Assembly: GCA_944324445.1 (NCBI GenBank)
Contig: CALUWL010000008.1
Location: 1-40,820 of the forward strand
Reading direction: 5' to 3'
Origin: Candidatus Gastranaerophilales bacterium
GTDB lineage: Bacteria; Cyanobacteriota; Vampirovibrionia; Gastranaerophilales; Gastranaerophilaceae
DNA: 40,820 nucleotides
The translations under genes were made by a program, and so were the position numbers. Under the pieces are notes generated by a model that was not told where the DNA came from, did not search any database, and was given only the letters and a program-made list of their open reading frames with translations. Positions 22,761 to 40,640 of this stretch are shown here, in pieces (position 1 is the stretch's first letter; every line of letters starts with the position of its first letter).

Positions 22761-23915
22761 GTGGAAGCTATAAATTATGGCTTTAAAGAGGATATTATTG
22801 TGTTAAATGTCAAAAATGATTTATTCTTAAATAGTGTAGGTGATTTAATCAGTGCAACCTCTGTTCACAATGACCATACGATTTTAATAGTGGATGATGA
22901 AATAAATAATTTGCAGCTTTTAAAAAGAACTTTTAGAGGAAAATATACGGTTTTAACTGCGTCAAACGGGCTTGAAGGTTTGGAGGTTTTAAAAAGAAAT
23001 ATAAATGATATTTCTTTAATTGTTTCGGATCATAAAATGCCCATTATGGAGGGTACAAAGTTTTTGGAAGAAGCTAATCATATAGCTCCCGATGTTATAA
23101 AAATTCTTTTAACAGGTTTTTCGGATATTGAAATAATAACTGATGCAGTTAATAAATGTAACTTATTTCAATATATTTTAAAACCCTTTGATCCTCAAGA
23201 ATTGCAGGAAGTAGTTAAAAACGGCTTGGATAAATTTGATTTAGTCAGCTCTAAATCAATGATATTAAAAGATTTAAAAGAATTATTTTATAAAACAATT
23301 AAATCCATAGCCTCGGCTCTTGATGCTAAAGACCCATATACCCACGGGCATTCCATGAGGGTTACATTGTATTCAATTATTCTTGCAAGAGAATTAAATG
23401 TTCCTGATGATCAGCTTGAATTAATTGAAACAGCCGGTTTATTGCATGATATAGGTAAAATCGCAATACCGCAGGCAATTTTGTGTAAACCCGGCAAATT
23501 AACAGACAGCGAATTTGTTGTTATGAAATCTCATCCTTCAAATTCGGAAAAGTTAATTGCAAGTATTAAAAAGCTTCACGAGGTTTCCCCCGGTGTAAAA
23601 CATCACCATGAAAGATGGGATGGCAGAGGCTATCCTGATGGATTAAAGGGCGAAGAAATACCTTTTTCTGCTCGTATTATAGCTATAGCTGATACTTATG
23701 ATGCTATGACATCTACAAGGTCATATAGAGTGGCTTTGACACATGAAACCGCTATTAATGAAATTGATAAATGTGCAGGAAGCCAATTTGATCCGACTTT
23801 GGCTAAAAAATTTGTTGAAATTCAAGATATAATCAGGGCCGCCAAGGAAAATCCGGAAGAATATTATATAAAATATTCAACTTTATATAAAGAAATTAAT
23901 CTGGCGCATGATTAA
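22761..23915 (+). CDS. Response regulator with HD-GYP domain (predicted c-di-GMP phosphodiesterase)
   Basis: 384 residues. After about 38 unassigned residues, a receiver domain runs 40-160: acidic DDE near 45, phospho-acceptor Asp in LIVSDHKMP, conserved Lys in YILKPFD. The HD-GYP domain (about 180-370) has the HD pair in LLHDIGK, a His in HTHG-like YTHGHSMR, and HHERWDGRGYPDGLKGEEIP. These residues predict hydrolysis of c-di-GMP. The start is GTG at 22761 without a good ribosome-binding site; a downstream GTG at 22801 is an alternative. Its last 20 nt overlap the convergent PHP gene. Confidence 0.9.
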   Translation: MEAINYGFKEDIIVLNVKNDLFLNSVGDLISATSVHNDHTILIVDDEINNLQLLKRTFRGKYTVLTASNGLEGLEVLKRNINDISLIVSDHKMPIMEGTKFLEEANHIAPDVIKILLTGFSDIEIITDAVNKCNLFQYILKPFDPQELQEVVKNGLDKFDLVSSKSMILKDLKELFYKTIKSIASALDAKDPYTHGHSMRVTLYSIILARELNVPDDQLELIETAGLLHDIGKIAIPQAILCKPGKLTDSEFVVMKSHPSNSEKLIASIKKLHEVSPGVKHHHERWDGRGYPDGLKGEEIPFSARIIAIADTYDAMTSTRSYRVALTHETAINEIDKCAGSQFDPTLAKKFVEIQDIIRAAKENPEEYYIKYSTLYKEINLAHD

Positions 23916-37562: not shown

Positions 37563-39106
37563 ATATAAATTTGATTTAGAGCGTTAAATATTGCTTTCAC
37601 GTTTGCTTGAGCGGTTGATGTATCTATTGCTCTTCCTATTATTTCTCTGCCGTCTTTATCAAGCATAGAAATCATACTCATTGCTCTTGCTGATGAGCCT
37701 TCTGTGTCGCCATCCAGTGAATATTGTTTATAATAGGATAGTTTTGTTTCAAAACCAAGTTTCTTTAAACCGTTTAAGCAAGCATCTAAAGGCCCGTTTC
37801 CTTTTCCTATTACTTCTTTTCTTTCGCCTTTAAAGTTAAAGAACAGGTCAAATATTCCCTTTTCGATTTCTTTTAAGGATACAAGCTCAAAAGCACCTTC
37901 TATATTGCATATTTTATCAAAATATAATTGTAAAATTTCTTTATCGGTTAACTCACCTTTAGTTTCTGCAATTTTTTTAGCTATAGGAGTAAGATAAACA
38001 GATTCTTGTATTGTAATTGGGTATTTGAGAGCTTTTATTATGTCATAGATTGCAGTTTTACCTGATTGAGAAGTGAAGCTGATTTTTTCATCATCAAATC
38101 TTCCTATTAAATCAGGATGAATTGGTCTGTATGCACCAAAATCCATGTCTTTTGTTTTAATTGCTCCGTCTTGGTGTATTCCGCTTCTGTGCGCAAGTGC
38201 TTCTGGGCCTATAAGGGGAGCTTTTTCGTATATTTTAACTTTTGACATCTGTGAAATAATTAAAGCTGTTTCATATAATTTATCGAGTTTAATGCCTGTA
38301 TCCACTCCGCAGTTATGTAAAGCTATTGCAACTTGCATAAAATCGGTGTTTCCTGCACGTTCTCCAAGTCCGTTCAGGCAGCATTCCAGTTGTATGGCAC
38401 CTTTAAAATAGCTTTCAACTGTTGTAGCAGTTGCCATTCCGAGGTCATTATGGTTGTGAACTGAAATGGTTACGTTTTCGGGCAAATTTTCTTTAACTTT
38501 TGAAATCATATCAAGAAATCTTTTCGGGCGGTATCTTTCAACGGTGTTTGGCAAGTTTATAGTTGTTGCGCCCTTTTTTACGATATCTTTTAAAACGTCA
38601 ATTACAAAATCAAGATTATCAAGACAATCTCCAAAATGTTCAACCGAAAATTCAACGTCTGCGTTTTTGTTTTCTTTAATTAAATTTTTATATCCGTATT
38701 CAACCGCATCAATTGCAAGAGTTGCAGCTTCATCAGGTTTTTTATTTAAAACATGCTCCATATGGAAAGGTGAAAGCGTTATAAAAGTGTGCAGGCGGGG
38801 CTTTTTAGCGTTTTTTACCGCCATAATGGCTTTATCTATATCTTCTTTATGTGCTCTTGCAAGAACCGAAACAAGAGTATCTTTAGCGCGTTGCGCAAGG
38901 GTTTTGCAGGATATAAAATCCATTTGAGATGAAGCAGGAAAACCAATTTCAATTGCAGGAATATTAAGTGCAACTATTTTGTCAAATATAAATTCTTTTT
39001 CTTCAAGGCTCCAAGGTTTTTTCAGCGATTGGTTGCCATCCCTTAAAGTTATATCATAAAAGAATGGTTTTTTTAGAATTGGTGCGGGGTTTTCATTTCT
39101 TTGCAT
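37559..39106 (-). CDS. leuA: 2-isopropylmalate synthase
   Basis: Condenses acetyl-CoA with 2-oxoisovalerate, the first leucine-specific step. 515 residues. The DRE-TIM barrel has YDITLRDGNQSL, EIGFPASSQMDF, metal ligands in SVHNHNDLG, and GLGERAGNTDFMQVA. The C-terminal LeuA regulatory domain (about 385-510) contains GKGNGPLDACLNGL and SMISMLDKDGREIIGRAIDT, consistent with leucine feedback. 'RDGNQ' followed by a Pro-containing linker is closer to the type found in actinobacteria and yeast than to the E. coli form. No leuBCD is nearby. Citramalate or homocitrate synthase are less likely alternatives. Confidence 0.88.
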   Translation of the reverse strand: MQRNENPAPILKKPFFYDITLRDGNQSLKKPWSLEEKEFIFDKIVALNIPAIEIGFPASSQMDFISCKTLAQRAKDTLVSVLARAHKEDIDKAIMAVKNAKKPRLHTFITLSPFHMEHVLNKKPDEAATLAIDAVEYGYKNLIKENKNADVEFSVEHFGDCLDNLDFVIDVLKDIVKKGATTINLPNTVERYRPKRFLDMISKVKENLPENVTISVHNHNDLGMATATTVESYFKGAIQLECCLNGLGERAGNTDFMQVAIALHNCGVDTGIKLDKLYETALIISQMSKVKIYEKAPLIGPEALAHRSGIHQDGAIKTKDMDFGAYRPIHPDLIGRFDDEKISFTSQSGKTAIYDIIKALKYPITIQESVYLTPIAKKIAETKGELTDKEILQLYFDKICNIEGAFELVSLKEIEKGIFDLFFNFKGERKEVIGKGNGPLDACLNGLKKLGFETKLSYYKQYSLDGDTEGSSARAMSMISMLDKDGREIIGRAIDTSTAQANVKAIFNALNQIYI

Positions 39107-39145
39107 AATCTTAATATCCCATATAGTTTATTTTTTTATCTTTTT

Positions 39146-39285: not shown

Positions 39286-39921
39286 ATGAGAATAAATAGC
39301 GTTAACAATCAACAAAATTTTAAAGGTACAGCAGCTGATAAGGTGGTCGGTTTTATTGCAAAACATCCTGGGACAATGGCAGCTCTTGCGGGTTCATCTG
39401 TTATTGCTCAAAAGGTTGTAATGTCTGCTGCTGAAGCAACAATTGGACCTGCAATGGATATTACCATAGGTAGTACTATTTCAAAAGTTACAAATGAAAA
39501 AGACGGAAGAACTAAAAAAAGTTCTAAAGTTCAAGCGGTAAGAACATTTTCTCAAGCAGTAGGCGGTACTTTTGTCGGTGTTATAATCCGCGGCTTGTGT
39601 ATTGCCGGTGCTACTGCTTTATGTATGAAATTGGGTGAAAAAGCAGGTCAAAAGCTCGGCGAAACGTTTGGTGATAAAGCTATAAATTTAATTAATGATG
39701 GTGTAGATAAAAGCAGTTTGTATTCCAGAACCAAAAATGCATCCGACTGGGGTAAGAACATAGGCGGAGCGGCTGCACTTCTTGTTATGCTTGTAACTAA
39801 TTTTATAATTGATGTACCCATTATAAATGCAATAAATAAAAAAGCATTTGGTCTTGTTAAAAAATTACACGGTAAAGAAGAAAAAACCTCTGAAAATGTT
39901 GAAAATAAGGAGGTTAAATAA
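39286..39921 (+). CDS. Hypothetical protein with NNQQNFKG N terminus and membrane-like helices
   Basis: 212 residues from ATG 39286, preferred over the upstream TTG at 39262 because the protein then begins MRINSVNNQQNFKG, a compact opening motif that I associate with proteins of this lineage. Hydrophobic, Gly/Ala-rich segments occur near 35-58 and 90-112, with another near 160-185. Charged linkers and an acidic tail (EEKTSENVENKE) complete it. No enzyme motif. It is translationally coupled to the next gene (TAATG overlap, with AGGAGG just before). Confidence 0.55.
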   Translation: MRINSVNNQQNFKGTAADKVVGFIAKHPGTMAALAGSSVIAQKVVMSAAEATIGPAMDITIGSTISKVTNEKDGRTKKSSKVQAVRTFSQAVGGTFVGVIIRGLCIAGATALCMKLGEKAGQKLGETFGDKAINLINDGVDKSSLYSRTKNASDWGKNIGGAAALLVMLVTNFIIDVPIINAINKKAFGLVKKLHGKEEKTSENVENKEVK

Positions 39922-40640
39922 TGAGTGATAACATTTTAAATTTGCTTAAATCGCTTAAACCCGGTGCAGAAAATGCAGGGAAATCTTTACTTTTATTAAA
40001 TGCTTTAGGTATGGTTTTTGCTGCTGCAAGTAATACGGTTGCAAGTGCGGTTGATAAAAATACTTCAGCGGAAGATAAAAAATTCCTTATACCTGCAGGT
40101 GTCGCAACCGGAGTTGCAAATATCAGTATATATTATGCAATGACAGATAAGTTGGTTAAAAAACTTATAGATGTTGCAGGAAATTATGTTGATAATTTAA
40201 AAGACACGGACTTAGCTGAAAAAGCTGCTGAATTTGCAAAATCAAGAATTGCAAAAGCTGAAAAAGGTTTATTTAAAAAACCTGAATTGGCTGAATCAAT
40301 GAAGCAAGCATTTTTTAAAAACGGTAATATTGCAGATGGTATAACTGATGCTGCAAAAAATTTGTATAAAAGCAATTTTGAAGCCGCTGCAGGTGTTGCA
40401 GGTGCTTTTATAGGAGCTGTTATAGGTTCATCTATATTAACTCCTATTATAAGAGATGTCAGCGCTTATTTTATTCAAAAGAAAATGGAAAAAAATAATC
40501 CTGAATTAGCAAATAAGCCATATAGACCTTATTATGACCCAACACGTGTCGGAACAGGTTTGTATAATAGAAGACAACCGTTATCTATGAAAAGCTTTAT
40601 GGCATTTACTAATGCAAGAAGCGGTAATATGAAGGTTTAA
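39921..40640 (+). CDS. Hypothetical protein, second gene of the cassette
   Basis: 239 residues. The layout resembles the first protein: Ala/Gly-rich hydrophobic segments (about 20-45, 53-75 and 150-178) with amphipathic, lysine-rich linkers. It ends in a distinctive basic, Tyr/Pro-rich tail (RPYYDPTRVGTGLYNRRQP then SMKSFMAF). The ATG overlaps the previous stop, and AGGAGG lies 6 nt upstream, the strongest ribosome-binding site in the window. A terminator follows. The two proteins probably act together, but no function is known to me. Confidence 0.55.
   Translation: MSDNILNLLKSLKPGAENAGKSLLLLNALGMVFAAASNTVASAVDKNTSAEDKKFLIPAGVATGVANISIYYAMTDKLVKKLIDVAGNYVDNLKDTDLAEKAAEFAKSRIAKAEKGLFKKPELAESMKQAFFKNGNIADGITDAAKNLYKSNFEAAAGVAGAFIGAVIGSSILTPIIRDVSAYFIQKKMEKNNPELANKPYRPYYDPTRVGTGLYNRRQPLSMKSFMAFTNARSGNMKV

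Follow-up and report, generated by a model that had tools for sequence, protein, structure and literature searches.

Bacterial N-terminal sorting or cargo peptides are short, occur on unrelated proteins, and stand before variable linkers, and glycine-zipper membrane helices carry the pattern GxxxGxxxG. Here, we describe two adjacent genes, P1 and P2, from a Candidatus Gastranaerophilales genome, which encode proteins with local likenesses to both and with no known relatives in the libraries searched. The source lineage comprises non-photosynthetic relatives of cyanobacteria that live in the gut and are uncultured. In one bacterial family of this lineage, the pair is an operon of near-universal occurrence that marks the family and offers a clean entry point to the biology of the lineage. 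Use of starch and glycogen has been predicted for gut Melainabacteria or Gastranaerophilales (PMC3787301, PMC4040986), and the gut types are described as having no type I secretion system (PMC3787301); the passages of these two papers that deal with such topics do not mention the pair. A search of the full-text literature on Gastranaerophilales, Melainabacteria, and Vampirovibrionia returned nothing on the pair or on the N-terminal tag discussed below, and a literature search for known sorting signals found none of the tag's form, with subscription papers falling mostly outside the coverage of both.

Results

Overlapping genes for P1 and P2

The window, the whole stretch of DNA analyzed, is one entire contig of 40,820 bases (G000:C8) from a 1.8-Mb genome that is 97 percent complete, and P1 and P2 are real genes of this genome (Table 1). 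The two frames overlap by one base within TAATG, and the Shine-Dalgarno sequence of P2 lies inside the 3' end of P1, which bears out the tight coupling of the two genes proposed in an earlier note on this DNA. That note also credited the pair with the strongest ribosome-binding site in the window, which is correct for P2, whose eight-base AAGGAGGT is the longest Shine-Dalgarno match among the 42 ORFs called in the window, and incorrect for P1, which is preceded by a weak AAG only. The same bases that form the Shine-Dalgarno sequence of P2 also encode the KE[VA]K tail of P1. The P1 orthologs end in KE[VA]K because this site occupies the same bases, and the P1 tail therefore need not be a protein motif.

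The sequence 3' of P2 forms a stable hairpin, and none of 200 shuffled sequences folded with equal stability, in agreement with the proposal that the pair has its own terminator; a consensus terminator scanner did not flag this hairpin. A promoter of the pair's own had been proposed as well and was not supported, as promoter-like sites were no more common than expected by chance (9 compared with 7.0 ± 2.6 in shuffled sequences). Rfam gave no match. The stretch from the terminator to the contig end (40708-40820) is GC-richer, and a 20-base piece of it has no exact repeat elsewhere among the fetched loci.

Table 1. Features of the P1-P2 locus, in window coordinates.
Feature	Coordinates	Strand	Basis
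Weak promoter-like site TTTGCA-16-TATAGT, 9/12, not above chance	39100..39127	+	Promoter scan
P1, 211 aa, ATG start, hydrophobic helical, no known family	39286..39921	+	ORF; 28/28 genus orthologs
P1 N-terminal tag, opening M[KR][IV]N.[IV] and core NFKG	39286..39327	+	Genus conservation
Shine-Dalgarno sequence of P2 (AAGGAGGT), within the P1 3' end	39907..39914	+	Best among 42 window ORFs
P2, 239 aa, ATG start, diverged paralog of P1	39921..40640	+	ORF; 28/28 genus genomes; P1 homology
P2 C-terminal motif PLSMKSFMAFTN	40578..40613	+	Loose motif in 28/28 genus members
P2 free C-terminus MKV ([LMIF][KR][IV]-COOH)	40629..40637	+	Genus and distant conservation
Intrinsic terminator hairpin 3' of P2	40677..40707	+	13-pair stem, -15.4 kcal/mol, z -4.58

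Protein properties and relationship of P1 to P2

As the earlier note had held, P1 and P2 belong to no recognized family. Single-protein searches with the window proteins gave no significant match in Pfam, NCBIfam, PHROGs, or PADLOC: the best Pfam E-values were 0.034 and 0.049 and the best NCBIfam value 0.074, all below the curated cut-offs; PHROGs returned weak matches alone (best E 0.0017, for P2); and PADLOC returned none up to E 0.1. Comparison of 30 P2 and 28 P1 members with Pfam produced just single stray matches (E 0.005 to 0.01), and one distant P2 had a weak PADLOC match (E 0.0023). Against the PDB, the P1 sequence alone matched nothing up to E 1, a P2 profile matched nothing up to 0.1, and a P1 profile gave only two weak matches, of MarR type (E 0.007). 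The AlphaFold model of P2 was all helical with a middling pLDDT of 72.9, and the model of P1 was unusable (pLDDT 41.5). Fold searches with the P2 model yielded no convincing match (Foldseek E 0.72 at best), and in VIA-align several BAR chains (BAR or F-BAR fold) reached a Z of 7.4 at best, which was equaled by unrelated GPCRs, Z values under 13 meaning little for helical bundles. Averaged over 19 residues, hydropathy peaked at 1.33, 2.01, and 2.25 in P1, with a fourth, lower peak of 0.71, and at 1.69, 1.35, and 1.99 in P2; the first helix of P1 is of modest hydropathy. Both proteins had been described as membrane-interacting: their hydrophobic segments are evident, and membrane contact itself is only plausible.

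By their sequence profiles, P1 and P2 are diverged paralogs, a relationship detectable with profiles of distant members only. With such profiles (23 and 25 sequences, members with E above 1e-5 being left out), hhalign gave a score of 44.4 and a probability of 87 over 128 columns, whereas the controls reached no more than 23.2 (40 local shuffles), 19.5 (40 full shuffles), and 13.0 and 14.9 (reversed profiles). Rotations of the P2 columns scored 24 to 45 and were not counted as a control because rotation keeps most of the aligned block intact. A P1 profile also found P2 members (best E 3.8e-7, in a set of 53). In the other direction, a P2 profile found P1 members at 2e-5. No homology was seen with genus-only profiles, and broad profiles reached an hhalign score of 21.6 only. 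As read from the alignments, the common part comprises three helices, of which the third is hydrophobic, and a polar turn (N-K-x-[IV]-[DP]-x-x-[TE]-[RK]) separates the first two.

Distribution and neighborhood of the pair

Single-protein queries found both genes in all 28 genomes of the genus and in all seven from other genera of the family (f1), with P1 present in 36 and P2 in 43 of 58 genomes, own genome included. In 30 more distant genomes, a profile search found P2 in 18 and P1 in 17, the latter count including an unrelated weak match in G053; P2 had no match in the f3 genomes, the f8 genome, or one of the two f4 genomes (G037). Across the phylum, P2 was found in 172 of 386 genomes; by reading of rows, it was present in 167 of 170 genomes of the family and in all three others of the order, and the other two matches were weak (E about 6e-5) and lay elsewhere in the class. 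Every named relative of P1 comes from a Candidatus Gastranaerophilales MAG and is 65-69 percent identical to it.

The P2 frame comes directly after P1, or nearly abuts or overlaps it, in the 29 homologous loci examined. Rows L008-L012 (the same places as L002-L006) and L112 and L091 (unrelated weak matches) were dropped from the analysis. By the first ATG of P2, 21 loci share one base and three overlap by eight; in the remainder, P2 starts three bases on (three loci) or has its first ATG further in (two). Neighboring genes differ between genera, and the pair is intact while its neighbors vary in 26 of 26 loci, which were chosen because they contain the pair. In the window's genus and in g3, a leuA2-type gene lies beside the pair, and the window copy matches IPMS_Lepto of NCBIfam above the cut-off. 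In four f1 genera, g2, g3, g7, and g8 (L195, L196, L200, and L201), glgC adjoins the pair, with the identity of glgC confirmed for L200 and L196. Loci L195, L200, and L201, from three genera, have the order glgC, P1, P2, and then opposite-strand genes for an anti-sigma factor and an ECF sigma factor.

The pair is single copy in its own genome; some other genomes have extra copies or diverged P1/P2-like cassettes. Second diverged, coupled cassettes related to P1 and P2 are present in L203 and L204 of f6, at about 8.2-9.8 kb, and in the L204 cassette one protein opens with a tag (MNISPISNK...QQSFNG). A diverged cassette of this kind also occurs in G033, on the minus strand (L271:16092-17239).

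Conserved ends and a two-part N-terminal tag

The ends of both proteins, which the earlier note had singled out, are conserved within the genus. The P1 opening is found in 28 of 28 orthologs, and 27 of them have a [NGSP]F[KNR]G core. Among distant P1 proteins, about 6 of 23 have a recognizable core, as judged by eye, which indicates that, over the order as a whole, P1 can do without the tag; P1 of f6 and of several f1 genera is untagged. Near the P2 C-terminus, an SM[KT]x[YF]M-type motif occurs in all 28 genus members. The last three residues fit [LMIF][KR][IV] in 25 of the 28 genus P2 proteins (28 if T is allowed, [LMIFT][KR][IV]) and in 18 of 25 distant ones, though the remaining tail diverges; 12 of 1532 sampled proteins end in this way, two of them P2.

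Taken literally, the N-x-Q-x-F-x-G opening proposed as a motif shared by many proteins did not hold up: it is not enriched at N-termini and occurs in one of 279 sampled proteins of the own genome, P1 itself. FKG alone was likewise not enriched (3 compared with 2.9 expected). Given these counts, we adopted a two-part motif of opening and core, and since its regular expressions were written after examples from both genomes or GH77 orthologs had been viewed, internal methionines served as the control. The two-part tag was found on 16 of 598 sampled proteins from two genus genomes compared with 0.3 expected, with 9 of 279 in the own genome (0.0 expected; internal methionines 0/1231) and 7 of 319 in G007 (0.3 expected; 1/1175). 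In this looser form, similar openings do occur on other proteins of the lineage, as the earlier note had supposed, and the motif is missing neither from the orthologs nor from the rest of the genome. At least one of the 16 matches, that at window position 23896 (MNLKELFSNFKK), appears to be due to chance. Opening and core are associated (14/18 compared with 148/580, Fisher 8e-6).

The two-part tag was rare in the other families sampled: none of 266 proteins in three f3 genomes (genus compared with f3, Fisher p 0.003) and none of 145 in the f8 genome carried it, and both f4 matches look like ordinary enzymes. It was also absent from 110 sampled proteins of G033, an f1 genome with the pair. The DNA pattern of the six-residue opening outnumbered its reversed control by 189 to 46 in 14 genus genomes and by 73 to 20 in nine further genomes of the family, and there was no excess in f2, which has the pair (14 to 19). 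The opening was also enriched in three f1 genomes in which P2 was not detected (32 to 14). Retention of the opening where P2 was not found, together with a pair but no sampled tag in G033, argues that the pair is not simply a tag receptor, and a tight link between tag and pair is weakened both by these three genomes and by the untagged distant P1 proteins.

Tagged proteins include a Hel308-like helicase, HNH proteins, a weakly glgC-like protein, several unknowns, and a GH77 enzyme; for the helicase and one HNH protein, the fit to the tag was judged by eye, and the two-part regular expression does not match them. In contig C5 of the own genome (L041:278-9134), four consecutive large genes with tag-like N-termini encode one unknown protein, the Hel308-like helicase, and two HNH-type proteins. 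In contig C13 (L049:1746-3737), a tagged protein of 663 residues has a weak glgC or nucleotidyltransferase match (TIGR02091, E 5e-7, far below the cut-off).

A tagged 4-alpha-glucanotransferase

GH77 is the clearest case of the shared tag. The own genome encodes a second GH77 with the N-terminal tag (L050:17136-19088, contig C14; orthologs L166-L184) and an untagged GH77 elsewhere (C2). Orthologs of the tagged enzyme have recognizable tag variants across the genus and in g2, g5, g7, g8, and f6, the tag being kept across genera while the linker diverges, and the other GH77 of the same lineages starts without a tag; the same enzyme thus comes in two versions distinguished by their N-termini. Loss of catalytic motifs in the tagged form was considered and is ruled out for the genus, whose members keep RIDH or RVDH, EDLG or EDIG, and HD, and the second genus GH77 is, by these motifs, predicted to be catalytically intact. 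Three tagged GH77 proteins outside the genus have WEDLV, WEALC, and WENIC at the second site (EDLG). In L197, roughly 2 kb separates the pair from the tagged GH77 gene upstream of it.

Discussion

The gene structure, coupling, co-inheritance, paralogy, conserved ends, and spread of the tag are consistent with a reading that we favor tentatively and regard as quite possible, in which P1 and P2 form a translationally coupled hetero-oligomer at the membrane, the tag is a lineage-specific sorting peptide, and the P2 tail docks; the membrane, the hetero-oligomer, sorting, docking, and function are the elements that we infer. An ancient duplication would have given rise to P1 and P2, and they would now be joined obligately in a two-gene operon of the order Gastranaerophilales, with joint synthesis by translation of P2 from a strong Shine-Dalgarno sequence inside the P1 end and across the one-base overlap. 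The hydrophobic helices of the two proteins would most likely come together as a hetero-oligomer that sits within the inner membrane or on its surface. The P1 tag, comprising M-[KR]-[IV]-N-x-[IV], a linker that is probably disordered, and x-x-F-[KG], would most likely direct proteins to a common place or partner, and the free C-terminus of P2 ([LM]-[KR]-[IV]-COOH) resembles a docking tail and may act as one. The fact that P1 is itself tagged suggests that it is a resident beside other tagged proteins rather than a receptor for them. We consider it quite unlikely that the locus represents an undescribed sorting system in which a two-part tag marks 2-3 percent of proteins, GH77 included, for a lineage-specific site that has the P1-P2 hetero-oligomer as its membrane scaffold and the P2 tail as a docking point.

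Several other explanations account for parts of these results. The glgC genes beside the pair in four f1 genera, the tagged GH77 close to it in L197, and the tagged, weakly glgC-like protein of 663 residues would all fit a role of the pair in alpha-glucan (glycogen) storage, at granules or the membrane, with the tag gathering enzymes such as GH77; but three of the four glgC genera share one gene order and may go back to a single event, a leuA-type gene takes the place of glgC in the window's own genus, and the tag is also carried by a Hel308-like helicase and HNH proteins, so that we judge this role distinctly improbable. That the tag is a secretion signal, with P1 and P2 as part or partners of an export route, is suggested by its N-terminal position before a low-complexity, variable linker on unrelated proteins and by the fact that, of two GH77 paralogs, one bears it and the other does not. 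However, no export machine was seen among the genes next to the pair, P1 is itself tagged, and untagged P1 orthologs exist, which makes export unlikely.

The opening could also be a by-product of A-rich starts, with AAA, AAT, and ATT codons after ATG, and the F-G core a matter of chance. The genome is AT-rich by inspection, and the opening pattern shows a weak excess over its control in f3, which is without the pair (41 compared with 27), and excesses of small number in single genomes of f8 (4 to 1) and f11 (9 to 2) in which no pair was detected. The pattern is not enriched, however, in eight f9 genomes (43 to 58) or in three genomes of other phyla (10 compared with 17), opening and core are associated with each other, and the GH77 tag persists across genera while the linker diverges, a last observation that points toward selection on the amino acids of the tag but is not a codon-level test; we therefore regard an origin in base composition as doubtful. 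A toxin-antitoxin or phage-derived membrane unit might likewise consist of two small neighboring genes that are coupled and encode hydrophobic segments, but this identity is very unlikely indeed for a pair that is present in all 28 genus genomes, is single copy in its own, and has no PADLOC match to the window proteins, only weak PHROGs matches, and no phage match for P2.

Under the reading of the tag as a sorting peptide of a membrane-associated P1-P2 complex, the occurrence of tagged and untagged members of one enzyme family in a single genome makes the tag immediately testable, and if it does sort proteins, it would be a new signal and might define a cellular compartment or surface that is likewise new. 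Among known systems, the tag is like bacterial N-terminal sorting or cargo peptides in being short, N-terminal, present on unrelated proteins, and placed before variable linkers. A hydrophobic helix of P2 contains the glycine-zipper-like G161-G165-G169, whose residues are invariant or almost so across the alignment; the likeness is one of local pattern only. By sequence, the nearest relatives of P1 and P2 appear to be their own paralogous cassettes in G033 (L271) and f6 (L203 and L204) and no named protein family; these cassettes have diverged far from the pair (in a set of 1840 proteins, E-values range from 6e-6 to 0.1), but like P1 and P2 they consist of adjacent genes, and they have weak profile matches to both.
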